Of a stretch of 34,286 bases of DNA, positions 5,499 through 14,928 are shown piece after piece. The position numbers and the translations under genes are program-made. The notes beneath the pieces were generated by a model, which had not been told where the DNA came from, ran no database searches, and was given only the letters and a program-made list of their open reading frames with translations. Source of the DNA: an uncultured Bacilli bacterium (GTDB taxonomy: Bacteria > Bacillota_I > Bacilli_A > ML615J-28 > CAG-313); the NCBI GenBank assembly GCA_944326155.1, contig CALVCV010000015.1, positions 1 through 34,286 on the forward strand, given 5' to 3'. The first letter of the stretch is position 1; every line of letters starts with the position of its first letter.

Positions 5499-7133
5499 AT
5501 GAACAATATTATATTAGCAATTATTGAATTATTGGGAGGAATGGGAGCTTTTCTTTTGGGTTTTAAAGTTCTATCAGAAAGCATTGAAAAATTAGCTAGT
5601 GCTGGGTTAAAACGTTTATTTAATAAAACTTCAAAAAATCGTTTTATAGGTGTTGGGATAGGTGCTTTAGTCACTGCAATTATTCAAAGTTCTAGTGCCA
5701 CTACCGTTATGATTGTTGGATTTGTTAATGCAGGTGTTATGAATTTATTTCAAGCTACCACAATGATTATGGGAGCCAATATCGGAACTACGATTACAGC
5801 CCAAATTGTGGCTTTACAAAGTTTTGATATTGTTGCATATGTTGCTATTCTTGCTTTTATAGGTATTTTCATGAATATGTTAGGGAAAAAGGATAAAACT
5901 AAAACGATTGGTTTATCATTGGCAGGATTAGGACTTGTATTTATTTCACTTGAAATTATGTCTGGTTCGATGGAAGCAATGAAAGAATCAGAGCAAGTCA
6001 TTCATCTTTTACAAAGTGTCAATAATCCTTTTTTATTGGTTTTAATAGGAGCAGGAATTACAGCAATTGTTCAAAGTTCATCAGCGGTTACAACAATTTT
6101 AATTTCCATTGTTGGGGCGGGAATTACAATTGGTAGTGATCCTAATGCTGTTTTATTTGTCGTTTTAGGTACTAATATTGGGACTTGTGTTACTGCTCTA
6201 ATTTCATCGATTGGTGCTTCTGTCAATGCTAGACGTGCTAGTTTAATTCATTTGTTGTTTAATATTTTTGGTAGTATTATTTTTATTATTATTTTATTAA
6301 TTTGGAAAGATTTTATGGTTGATACGCTCCAAAAATGGTTTAGTTCGCCAACTACTCAAATTGCGATGTTCCATACTTTATTCAATGTAGTTTCTACGAT
6401 TCTTTTTATTGGATTTGTTAATGTTTTTGTAAAACTATCAGAGTTGATAATTAAAGATAAAAAAGAAGACAAGAAAACAACTTATCTTGATGAACGTTTT
6501 ATTCATACTCCAGGAATAGCTATTAATCAAGCAATTAAAGAAACTGTTTTACTTGGTGAATTCGCCATGAATACTTTAGATTTAGCAATAACAAAATTTG
6601 TTGAAAAAAGTATCCTTGCAGAAGAGGAAATAAAAGAAAAAATTTCTGATATTGAAATAGTAAATAGAGAAATTATTACTTTTTTAGTTAAAGTATCATC
6701 TCAAGATGTAACAATTGAAGATGAAAAAACAATTTCGGCTCTTCATCATAGTCTAAATGACTTCATTCGTGAGGCTGAAATTGCCGATAATATGGTGAAA
6801 TATACTCGTTCAGTTATAAATAATAATATTGAATTTTCAGATTCCGTATATGAATCAATTAAAAAACTCCAAGGAATGTTAAAGGAGCAATTTGCCAATA
6901 TTAAAAAAATAATGTTATATTCTGATTATAGTTTGATTGGCAAAGTAAAAGATTTGGAAGATGAAATTGATCATATGCGTAGTACTTTAATAAATGGTCA
7001 TATTAAACGTTTGGAAGAAGGTAAGTGTAAGCCTCAAAGTAGTGGTATTTTTATTAATTTAATATCAAATTTAGAAAGAGCCGGAGATCATTTAGATTAT
7101 ATTGCCGATACGATGGTTAATAGCTTAAAATAG
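5499..7133 (+). CDS. Na+/phosphate cotransporter with C-terminal PhoU-like domain
   Basis: A 544-residue Na/Pi-cotransporter (NptA/PNaS family) membrane protein. It has the two inverted family repeats, each with a QSSSA motif (IIQSSSATT about residue 62-70 and IVQSSSAVTT about 190-200), and GANIGTT/GTNIGT motifs. From about residue 340 the protein is soluble and helical and ends in the PhoU-like LISNLERAGDHLDYIADTM. It should import phosphate with sodium at the cell membrane, with the tail sensing or gating. GAGG at 5485-5488 precedes ATG 5499. The response regulator follows 7 bp later, tying this transporter to phosphate signalling. Confidence 0.9.
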   Translation: MNNIILAIIELLGGMGAFLLGFKVLSESIEKLASAGLKRLFNKTSKNRFIGVGIGALVTAIIQSSSATTVMIVGFVNAGVMNLFQATTMIMGANIGTTITAQIVALQSFDIVAYVAILAFIGIFMNMLGKKDKTKTIGLSLAGLGLVFISLEIMSGSMEAMKESEQVIHLLQSVNNPFLLVLIGAGITAIVQSSSAVTTILISIVGAGITIGSDPNAVLFVVLGTNIGTCVTALISSIGASVNARRASLIHLLFNIFGSIIFIIILLIWKDFMVDTLQKWFSSPTTQIAMFHTLFNVVSTILFIGFVNVFVKLSELIIKDKKEDKKTTYLDERFIHTPGIAINQAIKETVLLGEFAMNTLDLAITKFVEKSILAEEEIKEKISDIEIVNREIITFLVKVSSQDVTIEDEKTISALHHSLNDFIREAEIADNMVKYTRSVINNNIEFSDSVYESIKKLQGMLKEQFANIKKIMLYSDYSLIGKVKDLEDEIDHMRSTLINGHIKRLEEGKCKPQSSGIFINLISNLERAGDHLDYIADTMVNSLK

Positions 7134-7140
7134 GATCGTT

Positions 7141-7794
7141 ATGAATTATAAAGTATATGTATTAGAAGATGATGAAAGTATTCGTGAATTAGTCACGATG
7201 GCATTAGAAATGGCACAAATATCAATAAAGAGTTTTTCTAAAATATCTGATTTTTTAGAGGCCATTGATAAAGAACTTCCAATAGTAATTTTACTAGATA
7301 TTATGTTACCAGATGGAAATGGATTAGATGTATTAACAAAGGTAAAGGCGAAATATCCTCATATTCAGTGCATTATGTTAAGTGCTTTAAGTCAAGAATT
7401 AGATAAAGTTAAAGGGTTAAATAGTGGTGCTGATGATTATATTACAAAACCATTCAGTACGCTTGAACTAATTGCTAGAGTAAAAGCAGCTTTGAGAAGA
7501 TGTGTAAATGAAGAAAAAATTTTAGATGATTTAATTATCAATAAAGATAAAATGGAAGTTACTTATAAAGGTAAAGTATTAGAATTAAATAATAAAGAAT
7601 ATCAGTTACTTTTATATTTTGTTGAAAATCCTGATGTAGTTTTATCAAGAGAGCGTTTGATTAATGCAATTTGGGGATATGATTATTTAGGTGAATCACG
7701 AACAATAGATAACCATATTTTAAGACTTCGAAAATTAGGTTTTTCTCAAATTGAAACTATTTTTGGTGTTGGATATAAATTTAGAACAAAGTAG
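7141..7794 (+). CDS. OmpR/PhoB-family response regulator (PhoP-like)
   Basis: A 217-residue response regulator. The receiver domain has the acidic pair Asp10/Asp11, phosphoacceptor Asp53 in LLDIMLPDGNG, Ser81 and Lys103 in ITKPF. The winged-helix domain (about 125-215) has the typical LNNKEYQLLLYFVENPDVVLSRE start and the RTIDNHILRLRKL recognition helix. It probably controls the pst genes and the cotransporter on phosphate limitation: it sits between the two transporters and is followed 10 bp later by its kinase. The Shine-Dalgarno (AGGA) is weak and overlaps the previous stop, suggesting coupled translation. The target assignment is inferred from position. Confidence 0.88.
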   Translation: MNYKVYVLEDDESIRELVTMALEMAQISIKSFSKISDFLEAIDKELPIVILLDIMLPDGNGLDVLTKVKAKYPHIQCIMLSALSQELDKVKGLNSGADDYITKPFSTLELIARVKAALRRCVNEEKILDDLIINKDKMEVTYKGKVLELNNKEYQLLLYFVENPDVVLSRERLINAIWGYDYLGESRTIDNHILRLRKLGFSQIETIFGVGYKFRTK

Positions 7795-7804
7795 GCTAAT
7801 TTAA

Positions 7805-9442
7805 ATGAAAAAAAGAATTTTATTTGTATTTATTATCATTATCTTTACTTCTACATTTATTTTTTCTATTATTTCATCTCGGATATATTATGAAAAATTT
7901 CTAGAAGATGCGAAGAACAATTTGTATATTTATATGAATCAATATAGTGAAGAATTTTCTTGGGATGTTGCTGGTGCAGAATCATATTCTCGTAAATTAA
8001 ATGGAGTAAGGGTTACTTTTATAGATAAAAATGGTGAAGTTGTAGGTGATAGTGAAGAAAATTTACCTCTTGATAATCATTTAAATAGAGAAGAAGTTAA
8101 AATTGCAAGTCTTGAAGGTGAAGGATTTGCCATTAGAAAATCAGATACTTTAGCACAACAGATGGTATATTTTTGTAAAAGTGTCAATGATGGATATGTT
8201 AGGGTTGCTGTAAAAACATCAACATATAGTCAAATATTTATTGATAGTATTCCATCACTGATTTGGTTTTTTATTATTGAAATCATTGTTTGTTTGCTAT
8301 TCACTTGGATATTAGTAGACTATATCATTAAACCTATTGAAAAACTTTCTATTGAAGGTGCAAGTGGTCAAAAAGTTAGTAGTACTTATCCCGAATTTTC
8401 TCAAATTGTAAAAATTATCAATAATATGAATGAAAGAATTGATGATAAAATATCAAAAATTAAAGAGGATAAAAAAATTGAAAATATTGTTTTAAACAAT
8501 ATGGAACATGGTATTATCATTTTGGGTCTTGATAATCATTTAATTTTAGCAAATAATATTGTAAATGAACTTTTTGGATATAGTGAGGTGGGGGAAAATT
8601 TGCCATTTTTTAAAGATGATCAAGAAATTTTAGAAGGTATTGAACAAGAAGAACAATTTCTTTTTTATCGGAAAAAAAATGATAAAGAATATGCAATTAG
8701 ATTTACTAAAAGCGAAAATGCAAAAGTCATTTTAGTTACTGATGTAACTGAAATAAAAAGAATGGAAAATTCTAAAAATGATTTTATTGCTAATGTTACG
8801 CATGAAATGAATACACCTCTTACTAGTATTAAAGGTTTTGCTGAAATGATTTTAACGGGTAATCTTGATAAGGAAAAAATTCAAAAATCTTGTGAAATAA
8901 TCTTGAAACAAACAAATCGTTTGAGTAATTTAATTAAAAATATTATTCATTATAGTTTGCTTGAGAGTGATAATCTTCCAAATTATCCAGTATGTATAAG
9001 TACGATTTTAATTGATATTTTACATAATTTTGAGGCTGTTTTTCCTGAAAAAAATTTAAAGGTTACGACCTTGATAGAAGAGAATCTCTTTATCTTATCA
9101 AGAACAGAGAAAATTTTTGAAATTATAAGTAATATTTTAACGAATGCAATTAAATATAATAAAATAAATGGTGAAATTGAAATTCATTTAAAAAAAGATG
9201 ATGATAAAATTATTTTAAAAATTAAAGATACAGGTCATGGCATTAAACAAGGTGATTTAGATAAAATTTTTGATCGATTTTATACTATTGATAAATCTCA
9301 TAATGAGCATAGTACAGGATTTGGTTTAGGACTTGCTATCGTTAAAAAAATTATAAATCAATCTGGTTGGAAAATATCAGTTGAGAGTGAATATGAAAAA
9401 TATACAATGTTTACCGTTGAGTTTAGTCCAATTATGAAATAA
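7805..9442 (+). CDS. Sensor histidine kinase (PhoR-like)
   Basis: A 545-residue membrane kinase. Order: TM1 (about 5-25), an extracytoplasmic sensor segment (about 26-155), TM2 (about 156-178), a linker, a PAS-like segment (about 220-315), a HisKA domain with His333 in ANVTHEMNTPLTSIKG, and an HATPase domain with N box ISNILTNAIKYN, DTGHGI, IFDRFY and TGFGLGLAI. The layout matches PhoR/WalK-type kinases. It should phosphorylate the adjacent regulator; phosphate as the signal is inferred from the locus. A terminator follows directly. Confidence 0.88.
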   Translation: MKKRILFVFIIIIFTSTFIFSIISSRIYYEKFLEDAKNNLYIYMNQYSEEFSWDVAGAESYSRKLNGVRVTFIDKNGEVVGDSEENLPLDNHLNREEVKIASLEGEGFAIRKSDTLAQQMVYFCKSVNDGYVRVAVKTSTYSQIFIDSIPSLIWFFIIEIIVCLLFTWILVDYIIKPIEKLSIEGASGQKVSSTYPEFSQIVKIINNMNERIDDKISKIKEDKKIENIVLNNMEHGIIILGLDNHLILANNIVNELFGYSEVGENLPFFKDDQEILEGIEQEEQFLFYRKKNDKEYAIRFTKSENAKVILVTDVTEIKRMENSKNDFIANVTHEMNTPLTSIKGFAEMILTGNLDKEKIQKSCEIILKQTNRLSNLIKNIIHYSLLESDNLPNYPVCISTILIDILHNFEAVFPEKNLKVTTLIEENLFILSRTEKIFEIISNILTNAIKYNKINGEIEIHLKKDDDKIILKIKDTGHGIKQGDLDKIFDRFYTIDKSHNEHSTGFGLGLAIVKKIINQSGWKISVESEYEKYTMFTVEFSPIMK

Positions 9443-9447
9443 AATAT

Positions 9448-9474
9448 GAATCCGTTATGACGGATTCTTTTTTT
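9448..9474 (+). terminator. Terminator after the histidine kinase
   Basis: GAATCCG (9448-9454), loop TTATGA, CGGATTC (9461-9467), then seven T residues. It separates the transporter/two-component unit from the pst operon. Confidence 0.88.
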
Positions 9475-9488
9475 ACATTTTTTTTACA
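9472..9488 (+). promoter_or_regulatory. Possible PhoP boxes: two TTTACA at 11-bp spacing
   Basis: TTTACA occurs at 9472-9477 and 9483-9488, an 11-bp period, which is the arrangement of TT(A/T)ACA repeats known for Bacillus PhoP. A third, out-of-phase ATTACA is at 9512-9517. They lie upstream of the pstS -10 box, a sensible place for an activator, and the regulator gene is nearby. Confidence 0.45.
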
Positions 9489-9598: not shown

Positions 9599-10537
9599 AT
9601 GAAGAAAAATTTAAAAAGTGTTTTATGTATAGTATTTTTAGCCGTTTCCCTATTCGGAATTGTTGGTTGTAAAGATGATGAAAAATTTGACTCAAGTGCT
9701 AAAATTCAATTATACACTCGTGATAAGACAAGTGGTACGCGTGATGGTTTTTTCACAAATATTCATTTTACTGATGCTGTAAGTGATAATAGTGTATTAG
9801 GTAGTGGCATTTTAGAAGCTAAAAATAATGGTGCCATGGTTGAAAGCGTTAAGAATGATGAATATGGTATAGGTTATATTTCACTTTCTTCCCTTAAAGA
9901 TTCTGGATTAAAGGGATTAATTTATGAAGGCGTTGCTCCAACTGAAGAAAATGTTTTAAATGGAAGTTATAAACTCACAAGAAATTTTAACTATATTGTT
10001 AGAAACGAATTTGCAACAGAAAAAGAGCAAAAAATTGTTGAAGCTTTTCTTGCTTTTTTAAAAACATCAGATGCTTTAATAACAATTCAAAGTAAAGATG
10101 GAATTGTTGATATTACCGGTGATGAACCATCATGGGATTCAATAAAAGACAACTATCCTATTTGTCTTGAAGATAATTCAAATATTACAATTAAATTTGG
10201 TGGTTCAACATCTGTAGAAAAAATAGCTAACGAATTGTCAAGAGAATTTTCTACTAAATGTGGTAATTTTGTAGCAGAGCATAATCATACAGGATCAGGA
10301 GATGCTTATAAATTTACTCAAGGAGAAGGAAAAGATTCAGCAACTTTTCTACACATTGCTTTTGCTTCACGAGAATTTAAAACAACGGAACAAGGTGCAG
10401 AAGGAACATATGGTAAAATTTGTGTTGATGCAATCGTTGCGGTTGTAAATGAAATTAATCCATTAGATAGGGTTACTGCTGATATGCTTAAAAAAATATA
10501 TGATGGTACTTATAGTAAATGGGAAGAAGTCAAATAA
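9599..10537 (+). CDS. pstS: Phosphate-binding lipoprotein PstS with circularly permuted domain order
   Basis: A 312-residue lipoprotein (lipobox GIVGC, Cys24). Right after the signal, residues 35-166 match the half that is normally C-terminal in PstS: IQLYTRDKTSGTRDGFF (phosphate loop), YGIGYISL, PTEENVLNGSYKLTRNF. Residues 198-312 then match the normally N-terminal half: KFGGSTSVEKIANELSREF, HTGSGDA, IAFASRE, DAIVAVVNEINPLDRVTA and final IYDGTYSKWEEVK, which in ordinary PstS runs straight into the TRD-SGTRD strand. Both phosphate-contact loops are therefore kept but the order is swapped, with a ~30-residue linker (167-197). No other half-gene lies nearby. It should capture phosphate outside the membrane for PstCAB. 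Confidence 0.88.
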   Translation: MKKNLKSVLCIVFLAVSLFGIVGCKDDEKFDSSAKIQLYTRDKTSGTRDGFFTNIHFTDAVSDNSVLGSGILEAKNNGAMVESVKNDEYGIGYISLSSLKDSGLKGLIYEGVAPTEENVLNGSYKLTRNFNYIVRNEFATEKEQKIVEAFLAFLKTSDALITIQSKDGIVDITGDEPSWDSIKDNYPICLEDNSNITIKFGGSTSVEKIANELSREFSTKCGNFVAEHNHTGSGDAYKFTQGEGKDSATFLHIAFASREFKTTEQGAEGTYGKICVDAIVAVVNEINPLDRVTADMLKKIYDGTYSKWEEVK

Positions 10538-10540
10538 CTA

Positions 10541-11380
10541 ATGCCTAAAATATTATCAATTCAAGATTTATCATGTTATGGTCAATGTTCAAATAGTGTT
10601 GCTTTACCTATATTATCGACTTTTGGTATTGAAACAATTATCTTGCCCACAATGATTTTATCAACTCATACAGGTGGTTTTAAAAATATATATATTCAGG
10701 ATTTATCAGAAAGTATAGATAAGATATGTCAAAGTTGGCAAGATAATAATATTAGTTTTGATGCAATATATATTGGATATTTGGGCAGTACAAAATTAAT
10801 AGAAAAAACAATTACCATCATTAAATTATTTAAAAAGAGAAATACGTTAGTATTTTTTACTCCTGCTTGTGCCGATAATGGTAAATTATATCAAGGATTT
10901 AATGATAATTATCTTGAAAAATTAAGGTCTTTGTGCTTTTATGCCGATTATATTGTGGCAAATGTCACAGAGGCCTTTTTCTTAATGAATTGTGAATATC
11001 AAGCTATCAATCATCCTAATAGAATTTATGAACTGATTCATGAATTGACAAAGAAATTTTTAACAAACATGATTATTACGGGAATAGAAATGAATAAAGA
11101 TGAAATTTATGTTTTATTTAAACAATACCATAGTCATCAAATTACTTCCTTCAAAGAGCAAAAAATAAATGGTAATTATCATGGCACAGGAGATATTTTT
11201 TTAAGTTATATGATTGGAAAATATTTTATTTCTCATGAGATGAATATATCAATCCAAGAAGCAATGAAATTTGTTAAAGACGCAATTGTTTTGACCAAAG
11301 AGGATACAAATCATTCATATGGTATTAAGTTTGAAAAAGTTTTACGAGGTTTTTATGAAAAAGCAAACCAATCAAAGTGA
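10541..11380 (+). CDS. Pyridoxal/pyridoxamine kinase family protein (ribokinase superfamily)
   Basis: A 279-residue PfkB/ribokinase-type kinase of the pyridoxamine-kinase (PdxK/PdxY) group. Diagnostic segments are ILSIQDLSCYGQCSNSVALP at the N-terminus, ILSTHTGGFKN, DAIYIGYLGS, CADNGKLYQGF, ANVTEAFFL, and the catalytic anion-hole motif HGTGDIF near residue 213. The usual DP(V) before ADNGK is TP here (FFTPACADNGK), a change at a position near the metal site. Members phosphorylate vitamin B6 vitamers in the cytoplasm to give PLP or PMP. It starts 3 bp after pstS with only a weak Shine-Dalgarno (GGAAGAAG) and overlaps pstC by 26 bp, so it is a true pst operon member. A different substrate is possible. 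Confidence 0.82.
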   Translation: MPKILSIQDLSCYGQCSNSVALPILSTFGIETIILPTMILSTHTGGFKNIYIQDLSESIDKICQSWQDNNISFDAIYIGYLGSTKLIEKTITIIKLFKKRNTLVFFTPACADNGKLYQGFNDNYLEKLRSLCFYADYIVANVTEAFFLMNCEYQAINHPNRIYELIHELTKKFLTNMIITGIEMNKDEIYVLFKQYHSHQITSFKEQKINGNYHGTGDIFLSYMIGKYFISHEMNISIQEAMKFVKDAIVLTKEDTNHSYGIKFEKVLRGFYEKANQSK

Positions 11381-12293
11381 TATAACCATTAAAAAAAGTA
11401 TAATGGATAAAATTTGGCGTTATTTCTTTTTAACAGTTACTTTAATTTGTTCATCGGTCATTATTTTTATAGTTTTGTTTATTTTAATAAAGGGGTTAAC
11501 TCCTTTTATCAAAAGTTATCATATTAATGGTGCTTTTTATAAGGTTGATTTTATTAAATTTATATTTGGAAGTAGATGGTTTAAAAATCCTAATATTTAT
11601 GGTATCGGTTTTATTATTGTCAATACAATTTATGTTACTATTATATCACTACTTATGGCTATTCCAATTTCAATTTTAACAGCACTTTTTATCGCAAAAA
11701 TTGCACCTAAAAAAATTAGTACAATTTTAAGTTATATTATTGAATTGCTATCAAGCATTCCTTCGGTTATTTATGGGATGTTTGGAATGGGAGTTGTAAC
11801 TAAAATAGTAAAAGCGTTGAGTAATTTTTTTGGGTATCAAAGTGCTGGAGGGCTTTCGGTATTAACGGTTGCAATTGTACTGGCAATAATGATTATTCCA
11901 ACGATTACGATGATTTCGGTTTCTTCCATTCAAGCAGTCAAAAAAGCATACATTGAAGGTTCTCTTGCACTTGGAGCCTCCATTACGCAAACCAATTTTA
12001 AAATTGTTTTATCAAGTGCTAAAAATGGAATATTTTCTGGTGTTATATTAGGAATAGGTAGAGCATTAGGTGAGGCAACTGCAGTTTCAATGGTTGCTGG
12101 AAATCCTAGTTCAGGTCCTAATTTTCATCCATTTGAGGCTACTAAAACTTTAACATCTACAATGCTTCAAGGTCTAACAGAGGCAGAAGGTTTGGAATAT
12201 GATATAAGGTTTAGTGTAGGTATTGTTCTAATTATGTTAATTTTAGGTAGTAACTTACTTTTAAACTTAATTAAAAGGAGAATAAAGATATAA
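11355..12293 (+). CDS. pstC: Phosphate ABC transporter permease PstC
   Basis: A 312-residue permease with about six membrane segments. The family marks are SSIPSVIYGMFGMG, the EAA-type loop IEGSLALGASITQTNFKIVL and GIGRALGEATAVSMVAGN. An upstream in-frame ATG at 11319 exists, but GAGG at 11346-11349 with 5-bp spacing points to ATG 11355, inside the end of the kinase gene. It forms the phosphate channel with PstA. The stop shares one base with the pstA start (TAATG). Confidence 0.92.
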   Translation: MKKQTNQSDITIKKSIMDKIWRYFFLTVTLICSSVIIFIVLFILIKGLTPFIKSYHINGAFYKVDFIKFIFGSRWFKNPNIYGIGFIIVNTIYVTIISLLMAIPISILTALFIAKIAPKKISTILSYIIELLSSIPSVIYGMFGMGVVTKIVKALSNFFGYQSAGGLSVLTVAIVLAIMIIPTITMISVSSIQAVKKAYIEGSLALGASITQTNFKIVLSSAKNGIFSGVILGIGRALGEATAVSMVAGNPSSGPNFHPFEATKTLTSTMLQGLTEAEGLEYDIRFSVGIVLIMLILGSNLLLNLIKRRIKI

Positions 12294-13531
12294 TGCAAGT
12301 AGCAAATAATAATTTGTTCAAAAGATTAAAAAAACGAAAAATGAAAGATAGTATTTTAAATAGTATTACTTGGATTGTTTCAAGTTTTGGCTTCATTGTT
12401 TTAATAACTTTATTCATATTTATTTTTGCAAAAGGTAGCAAAACTTTATCTTTTGATTTACTTTTTAGTAATTATTCAAAAACAACTTATTCTCTAGAAA
12501 AAACGCATAATTCCTTGCAATTATTTACAAATCCCAAATTAGAAAATACATATTTTTCTAATATTTGGGGAATATCATTACAAGACGATAAAGATGCAGA
12601 GGGATTAGATGTTGTAACCATTGCCTATATTGATGAAAATTCTCCTTTTAATCAATTAATAGAAAAGAATTCTGGTGCAACAATTAAAATTAAAGTAGGT
12701 TCTCAAATCTCCAAAATAGTTTTAATGAAAGAAGATGGTAAAACAATTTATACAATTGCCAAAAAGGGTGCATCCGAGATGGTTGAGTGCTTAAATCAAG
12801 CAAAAATAATTTCAGATATGATTATTACAACAGGTGGAGGAGGAATACGTGGTTCGCTCCTAACAACAATTTATCTCATTATTATAACGCTTATTATTGC
12901 CATACCATTAGGAGTTGGAGGAGCTATATATTTAAATGAATATGCAAAAGATAATAAATTTACGACTTTAATTAGAACAATGATTGATATGACATCGGGA
13001 ATTCCTTCGATTATCTTTGGTTTAGTAGGAGCCATTATCTTTATTCCTATCTTTAATAAGGTCATTCATTCAAGTGGTGGCAGTATTATATCAGGGGCTT
13101 TTACAATGTCAATTATTTTATTACCAATTATAATTAAAACAACAGAAGAGGCTTTGAAAGCAATCCCACAAGATTATCGAAATGCTTCTTTGGCACTGGG
13201 TGCATCTAAAATTCAAACAATTTTTAAGGTAATCCTACCTAGTGCATTAAATGGTATCTTAACTGCTACCTTACTTTCAATTGGAAGAATTATTGGAGAA
13301 TCGGCAGCCCTTATCTATGCGATTGGTACTGCTATTAAAGATAAAGCAATTTTGAATGAAAAATCTACAACTTTAGCTGTTCATATTTGGACTTTACTTG
13401 AAGGAGATAATCCTAATTATGAACATGCATGTGCTATTGCAATTGTTATTTTATTAACAGTCTTACTTTTGAGTATTTCAATAAAAATTGTTTCAAAATG
13501 TTTTAATAAGGAGAAAAATAATGCTGTCTAA
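12293..13531 (+). CDS. pstA: Phosphate ABC transporter permease PstA with extra extracytoplasmic domain
   Basis: A PstA permease of 412 residues, against roughly 280-300 for common forms. TM1 spans about 25-47. Then about 115 extra residues (about 62-178) are expected outside the membrane before the conserved transporter core that starts [15 protein letters not shown]. The core has [14 protein letters not shown], the EAA-type loop [19 protein letters not shown] and [12 protein letters not shown]. Within the insert, [27 protein letters not shown] and [11 protein letters not shown] resemble the start, ENSP turn and carboxylate-loop region of a PDZ domain; this is tentative. Overlaps: 1 bp with pstC, 11 bp with pstB. 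Confidence 0.9.
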
Positions 13532-14297
13532 AGAGAATATTCAAAAAACATTACCAATTTTTGAAATAAGAAATGTTAATCTTAATTATGGTGAAAAACA
13601 AGTTTTAAAAAATATTGATTTAAATATTTATAAAAATAAAGTAACTGCTTTCATCGGTCCTTCAGGTTGTGGTAAATCTACTTTACTTAGGTGTTTCAAT
13701 CGTATGAATGATTTAATTGAAAATTGTACAATAGAAGGAACCATAACATATAAAAAAGAGGATATAAATCAAATAAATCCAATTGATTTAAGAACTAAAG
13801 TGGGAATGGTTTTTCAAAATCCGAATCCTTTTCCTATGTCAATTTTTGATAATATTGCTTATGGTCCTAGGTGCCAAGGCATAAAAAATAAAGAAAAATT
13901 ACGCTTGATTGTCGAGGATTCATTAAAGAAAGCAGGACTTTTTGAAGAAGTAAAAGATCGTTTAAAGGATAATGCTTTAGGATTATCAGGTGGTCAACAA
14001 CAACGTTTATGCATCGCTAGATGCATTGCAATGGCTCCAGAAGTAATTTTAATGGATGAACCTACATCAGCGTTAGATCCAATCGCAACTATCAAAATTG
14101 AGGAGTTAATTAATAGTTTAAAAAAGGATTTTACAATAGTAATCGTAACTCATAATATGCAACAAGCAAGTAGAATTTCGGATTATACAGCATTTTTTAT
14201 GTTAGGTGAAATTGTGGAATTTAATGAAACAATTCATTTATTTAGTAATCCTTTAAATAAAAAAACAGAAGATTATATTACAGGAAGGTTTGGATAA
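13521..14297 (+). CDS. pstB: Phosphate ABC transporter ATP-binding protein PstB
   Basis: A 258-residue ATPase. It has Walker [10 protein letters not shown], the PstB-specific [12 protein letters not shown], the Q-loop [14 protein letters not shown], signature [16 protein letters not shown], Walker [14 protein letters not shown] and switch [19 protein letters not shown] at 13508-13513 fixes the start at ATG 13521; an upstream ATG at 13488 lacks such a site. It should energise the PstCA channel from the cytoplasm. Confidence 0.95.
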
Positions 14298-14298
14298 G

Positions 14299-14928
14299 AT
14301 GCAATTACAAAGTGAGATTAAATATTTAAAGCAAATGTTGATAAAAATGGCTGATCAAGTAAAAAATAATATTACTGATGCAGTAGCCTTTTATACCAAA
14401 AAAACAAAACCAATTATAATTAATGATAAAATTGTTAATCAATATGAAGAATTGATTGATGAAATTTGTTTTAACCTTTTAATTAAAGAAAGGTTATTTG
14501 CCAAAGATTTGCGAGAAGTTATTGCTATTTTAAAACTTGTTTCAGATATTGAAAGAATAGGTGATCATGCCGAAGATATCATGGAATTTAGTCAAAAATT
14601 GGAGGCCATTGATATTAAAAATAGTGAAAATATTCATAAGATGGTTCAAATTGCTTTAAAAATGATAAATGATGCTATTCTCAGTTTCGTTAATGAAGAT
14701 ATTGAATTAGCTAAGAAAACAATTTTATTAGATGATGAAGTTGATTGTATCTATGCTAAGATTGTCTTCGATTTGACTAATTTTGATAAAAACGCAGAAT
14801 GTGCTATTCCTTATATTATATATACTACTCTTATTGCAAAATATATTGAAAGAATTGCTGATCATGCATCAAATATTGCTGAGTGGGTGAGTTATATGAT
14901 TGATGGATCTATATTTAAAAATAACTGA
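14299..14928 (+). CDS. phoU: Phosphate signalling/transport regulator PhoU
   Basis: A 209-residue all-helical PhoU with two repeats. Each ends in a metal-binding motif: SDIERIGDHAEDIMEF in the first and YIERIADHASNIAEWV in the second. PhoU restrains Pst uptake and relays the transporter's state to the PhoR kinase. The frame is open from a TTG at 14290, but that lies next to the AGGAAGG site (14282-14288), so ATG 14299, 1 bp after the pstB stop, is the better start. It is the last gene of the pst operon, and the second PhoU-like domain of this locus. Confidence 0.93.
   Translation: MQLQSEIKYLKQMLIKMADQVKNNITDAVAFYTKKTKPIIINDKIVNQYEELIDEICFNLLIKERLFAKDLREVIAILKLVSDIERIGDHAEDIMEFSQKLEAIDIKNSENIHKMVQIALKMINDAILSFVNEDIELAKKTILLDDEVDCIYAKIVFDLTNFDKNAECAIPYIIYTTLIAKYIERIADHASNIAEWVSYMIDGSIFKNN

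Follow-up and report, generated by a model that had tools for sequence, protein, structure and literature searches.

The gene at positions 9599..10537 (+) of the window, by which we mean the whole stretch of 34,286 nucleotides analysed here, encodes a 312-aa lipoprotein (ATG start) that profile, PDB and fold matches identify as a circularly permuted PstS. The permutation itself is established, and we consider it very probable that the gene represents a genuine, naturally permuted PstS which serves a PstSCAB importer as its lipid-anchored phosphate receptor.

Order of the halves and predicted fold

The signal peptide reaches to the lipobox cysteine C24 (residues 1-24, 9599..9670 (+); LFGIVGC, read directly from the sequence), which marks the product as an exported lipoprotein; C24 is invariant in alignment A1, and a lipobox is present in 110 of the 122 permuted open reading frames described below. 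The stretch that follows, residues 34-170 (9698..10108 (+); TIGR02136, half-profile scan), corresponds to what is the second half in canonical PstS, moved to the front in this protein, and contains TRDKTSGTR and GIGYISL. It is joined by a new linker, which bridges the former C- and N-termini (residues 171-194, 10109..10180 (+)), to the canonical first half, which is placed last (residues 195-312, 10181..10534 (+); PF12849, half-profile scan), contains GGSTSVEK, HTGSGDA and ASRE, and ends in WEEVK. In the Pfam family PF12849, profile positions 11-125 align with residues 197-310 and positions 129-263 with the stretch upstream; in the NCBIfam family TIGR02136, profile positions 161-293 align with residues 33-170. 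The score against the latter (119.8 bits) is below the curated cut-off of 206.6 bits, as expected for a match that is split. Both halves of the PBP_like_2/PstS domain are thus present, while the canonical order, first half before second half, is not, and we have therefore filed the protein as a permuted variant of PstS and not as canonical PstS.

Canonical PstS carries a conserved motif, W-s-e-v-G-G-x-d-x-x-I-v-v-x-R, at the junction of its halves, and the gap between the two half-profiles has a median of 4 residues. Permuted PstS proteins end C-terminally at the W of this motif and start, past the lipid tether, at its I, and the linker uniting the old ends comprises 14-29 residues (median 19). 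The residues of the two phosphate loops (R41, S45-G46-T47-R48; G202-S203, S205; S233; S257-R258), and likewise D277, are invariant among 36 aligned sequences. These residues, assigned from known PstS structures, are presumably the phosphate contacts.

An AlphaFold model of the window protein, built with 35 permuted relatives, was obtained at a pLDDT of 92.6 and a pTM of 0.84. Its top fold match in the PDB is 4h1x (Foldseek E 5.4e-23, TM 0.84 by target length, about 21% identity in the fold alignment), and in the PDB sequence match residues 5-265 of 4h1x_A cover residues 30-312 of the window protein as a single collinear block (E 1.7e-13). The second-ranked fold match, OpuAC, has an E-value weaker by over 16 orders of magnitude, and canonical PstS appears among the fold matches of the model only at E of about 1e-3. 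With the second half first, a cut at the W..I junction and a collinear fold match to 4H1X, the window protein falls into the 4H1X-like group of permuted PstS. According to its PDB title, 4H1X is SP_2084, deposited as a phosphate-binding protein of Streptococcus pneumoniae under the molecule name pstS 2. We take SP_2084 to be the gene directly following pnpRS in TIGR4 and, hence, the Pst1 protein. The PDB molecule name and the naming in PMC4913102 (PstS1) appear to differ.

The sequence-only reading of this gene had claimed that the halves of PstS are swapped, that both phosphate loops are retained and that the fold could still close. The reversed order is borne out by Pfam, NCBIfam and the canonical PDB chains: the canonical structures 4q8r, 4gd5, 1twy and 4n13 each matched as two blocks in reversed order. 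The residue coordinates and motifs it had given proved accurate, both loops are present and invariant across the 36 aligned sequences, and normal closure of the fold is supported by a confident model and by its collinear match to the permuted 4H1X.

Genomic context and proposed role

The gene is preceded on the same strand by genes for an NptA-like Na/Pi cotransporter with a PhoU domain (5499..7133 (+); PF02690, PF01895), a PhoB-like response regulator (7141..7794 (+); PF00072, PF00486) and a PhoR-like histidine kinase (7805..9442 (+); PF00512, PF02518). A terminator-like hairpin with a T run, read directly from the sequence, lies 3' of phoR (9449..9474 (+)), suggesting that pstS may have its own promoter. 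A pattern search of the window yielded, ahead of pstS, a direct repeat resembling a Pho box, TTTACA-N5-TTTACA (9472..9488 (+)), the single match in the window versus 0.08 expected. With 0-1 mismatch, the same repeat occurs upstream of 27 of 35 window-type permuted pstS genes and of 34 of 44 clostridial ones (0.3 expected in either set), and the repeat in the window agrees with TTTACACAATCTTTACA, the Pho box published for the pneumococcus (PMC4913102). The pneumococcal Pst1 system, located downstream of pnpRS, is strongly induced by low phosphate and contributes to phosphate uptake (PMC4913102).

Downstream follow PstC (11319..12293 (+), likely start 11355; PF00528, operon comparison), PstA (12293..13531 (+); PF00528 at 207-405), the PstB ATPase (13488..14297 (+); PF00005) and PhoU (14290..14928 (+); PF01895), so that the permuted pstS is encoded together with pstC, pstA, pstB and phoU, presumably under Pho control, as read from the Pho box and the operon. 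The interval between pstS and pstC additionally harbors a pyridoxal/HMP-kinase-like gene (10541..11380 (+); PF08543), which, among the loci compared, occurs in that of the window only.

In the model, PstA displays an extracytoplasmic insert at about residues 60-180. This insert of about 120 residues is beta-rich and common to the window-type clade; sequence and fold searches identified no domain in it, and a PDZ domain, which was considered, found no support in the sequence. The top fold match of the PstA model is E. coli PstSCAB (9k3s_A), in a search dominated by the membrane part. Operon comparison revealed PstA lengths of about 390-430 aa in most members of the window-type clade, of mostly 270-330 aa in permuted clostridial operons and of 272-291 aa in nearly all canonical operons. 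Since the insert is missing from the permuted clostridial operons, it follows a clade and does not result from the permutation, and we reject the idea that it is an adaptation to permuted PstS. The sequence-only reading had expected permuted PstS to present a different face to PstCA; the insert is the one peculiarity of PstA that came to light in this respect.

Based on the phosphate loops, the operon, the Pho box and the genetics of the pneumococcal relative, the window protein most likely works as a normal phosphate receptor of the Pst system whose termini have been relocated. As such it would bind phosphate in the cleft between its two lobes in the manner of a Venus flytrap and would hand it to PstC/PstA as ordinary PstS does. 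The permutation would only shift the lipid tether at the N-terminus away from its customary chain end and place it at the W/I junction of the two halves. Permuted PstS offers a natural test of how strongly docking on the importer depends on the position of the lipid tether and of the chain ends.

Distribution, rearrangement and origin

The proposed search for relatives with the same order of halves was rewarding, as the permuted form turned out to be widespread across Clostridia and Bacilli. In a half-profile scan, the second half preceded the first (order 2-1) in 122 open reading frames and followed it (order 1-2) in 50 canonical ones, numbers that include some loci more than once; the canonical proteins belong to the same classes as the permuted ones. 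By manual count of the match lists, permuted PstS is encoded in 20 out of the 99 Clostridia genomes sampled and, among the matches listed, in at least 38 of 295 Bacilli genomes. Order 2-1 is found in the relatives of the window type (Acholeplasmatales, Izemoplasma-type bacteria and Erysipelothrix) and also in a second, clostridial clade comprising Lachnospiraceae, Oscillospiraceae, Tissierellia and Gordonibacter; some genomes, such as that of Coprococcus comes, harbor permuted and canonical PstS together. The four genomes of the same genus as the window yielded no match, which indicates that permuted pstS is patchily distributed. It is easily overlooked in family annotation because its split matches stay below cut-offs or are taken as partial.

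Fused double PstS, which the earlier reading had suggested looking for in related genomes, does occur, as does a triple, in all cases built of units that are already permuted. Doubles (2-1-2-1) were identified in L030, L031, G186, G203, G054 and G156 (loci L030, L031 and L126, L127, L128, L129), with a frameshifted double in G392 (L185). The triple (2-1-2-1-2-1; 905 aa, L253:3796-6510 (+), G576:C93) is located directly upstream of pstC-pstA-pstB, and its copies are 77-91% identical by half. In a first tree the two copies inside each double cluster together, indicating that fusion occurred several times or that the copies were homogenised. In every intact concatemer the copies of the second half are closer to each other at the protein level than those of the first half, which suggests that gene conversion has occurred or that the halves are under different constraint. 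In L130 (G321) and in L095 (Fibrobacteria GUT77), two permuted pstS genes stand in tandem but unfused, an arrangement that would precede fusion. In G016 (L255:5905-6963 (+), G016:C33; also L010 and L020), a permuted PstS continues into a C-terminal tail resembling PhoR. Because G576, of the same genus, carries the triple, this apparent chimera probably stems from misassembly where a concatemer collapsed, and short-read assemblies may collapse such pstS arrays.

A further order, 2c-1-2ab, is encoded in G271 (G271:C3:139845-140771 (-), corresponding to L117:1495-2421 (-)), a member of the same genus as the double-bearing G186. This protein is the only PstS of its genome, has its own lipoprotein signal and stop, is encoded in an intact pst-phoU-phoBR operon (L184) and nests among permuted relatives in the trees. 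Cutting back a 2-1-2-1 protein from both termini yields exactly this order. This second permutation is known from one genome; searches of 88 genomes of the family and 394 genomes of the class returned no second example.

Taken together, the doubles, the triple and the second cut resemble intermediate stages of permutation by duplication that have survived to the present. It appears somewhat more probable than not that permuted PstS of the Acholeplasmatales-type Bacilli is still being reshaped through duplication and trimming, with one to three fused units in different lineages, and that at least one of these, G271, trimmed a concatemer to the 2c-1-2ab form that is now its only PstS. For the first permutation, the tandem duplication, fusion and loss of the outer halves proposed by the sequence-only reading are our best inference: doubles, triple and second cut in the relatives speak for this route, while the part calling for a double of ordinary units did not find its counterpart, as the fused units are already permuted and a canonical 1-2-1-2 fusion was not seen among the loci and genomes surveyed. 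Duplication as the source of the first permutation is thus deduced from what happened later within this family. Order 2-1 would have a single origin, in a tandem duplication that was fused in frame and then trimmed; fused doubles and triples of 2-1 units are still being made in relatives, and one lineage appears to have cut a concatemer down to a third order, 2c-1-2ab. Were the family indeed still rearranging in this way, a single textbook protein would display every stage of permutation by duplication except the first, with doubles, triple and second cut point as extant intermediates for its study, and the multi-copy forms would constitute multi-receptor phosphate importers.

Other routes to order 2-1 have to be weighed against this scenario. 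Fission and re-fusion, or the cut-and-paste of one half, would likewise produce it; a route of this kind is accepted in the literature alongside duplication (PMC3320104), and the missing 1-2-1-2 ancestor fits it. However, fused tandem copies recur in this family, the 2c-1-2ab protein is what a trimmed 2-1-2-1 concatemer would leave, and a split pstS pair was not noticed among the loci compared, so that we regard this route as rather unlikely. A similarly low likelihood is assigned to two separate origins of the order with an identical cut point, one in the clade of Acholeplasmatales/Erysipelotrichales type and the other in the clostridial one. The window-type and the clostridial clade are each well supported, and free trees place canonical rows between them (weak support of 84/84; two changes in another tree), the branching between canonical and permuted forms being weak. 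Uniting all permuted rows in a single clade, on the other hand, raised the lnL by 11.55 above the free tree (AU test, p-AU 0.735), which favors but does not prove one origin, and cut point and linker position are identical in both clades. In an early tree the divergent canonical proteins L096 and L097 fell inside the permuted clade on long branches; they were left out of later trees.

More basic doubts concern whether the protein is real and what it binds. Two pstS genes joined head to tail during assembly would simulate a permuted reading frame, and the window does stem from a 37-contig draft, and the relative contig of G016 (L010/L020), where PstS runs into a PhoR-like tail, does look chimeric. 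Yet the same order recurs in many independent assemblies, including the complete chromosomes of Tenericutes MO-XQ and Erysipelothrix HDW6A, and in the crystal structure 4H1X, which refutes misassembly as an explanation for the permuted group; the window gene, moreover, is the sole PstS gene found in its genome. An artefact is thus scarcely conceivable. That the protein binds an oxyanion other than phosphate, or acts mainly as a sensor, draws on its low identity to solved PstS, 4h1x included, which leaves phosphate specificity a prediction. Against this stand the invariance of all phosphate-loop residues, an operon with PhoU, PhoB, PhoR and a Na/Pi transporter, the Pho box upstream and the deposition of the best solved relative, 4H1X, as a phosphate-binding protein, and we consider such a role quite improbable compared with that of a phosphate receptor.

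Relation to known systems

With canonical PstS (TIGR02136/PF12849; 4gd5, 4q8r, 1twy, 4exl), the window protein shares the halves, the phosphate loops, the lipoprotein signal and the operon; it differs in the reversed order of halves and termini and in missing the TIGR02136 cut-off. With 4H1X it shares the permuted order, collinear over window residues 30-312, but the latter is of low identity, shorter and, like L011/L012-type relatives, devoid of the insertions of the window clade. Searches of the open-access literature found no paper naming 4H1X and no text describing PstS as permuted, the latter being weak evidence of absence. The next-best collinear fold match to the model is OpuAC of Bacillus subtilis (E 1.7e-6), with a TM of only about 0.4-0.55 and with glycine betaine as its ligand, unlike the phosphate predicted for the window protein. 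OpuAC and ProX are themselves reported to be permuted with respect to one another.

A natural permutation also characterizes the 'Type Ic' binding protein Tp0684 (MglB-2) of Treponema pallidum, which is likewise lipid-tethered and serves an ABC importer; Type Ic proteins also occur in Gram-positive gut bacteria (PMC4990184). Tp0684, however, has a Type I fold, a glucose ligand and another cut point and is not homologous at the family level. The window protein lacks the Type I (MglB) fold with N-lobe permutation that defines Type Ic, its matches being to PstS and type II binding proteins. Natural permutation of a binding protein is therefore already known (Tp0684, PMC4990184), and a permuted PstS has been crystallised (4H1X); new are the fused doubles, the triple and the second cut point (2c-1-2ab of G271) in related Bacilli. 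Permutation by duplication is predicted, and documented, to leave duplicated and partly trimmed intermediates as its signature, as described for DNA methyltransferases and saposin/swaposin (PMC3320104); these proteins are unrelated to PstS, whose concatemers, in contrast, consist of an already-permuted unit.
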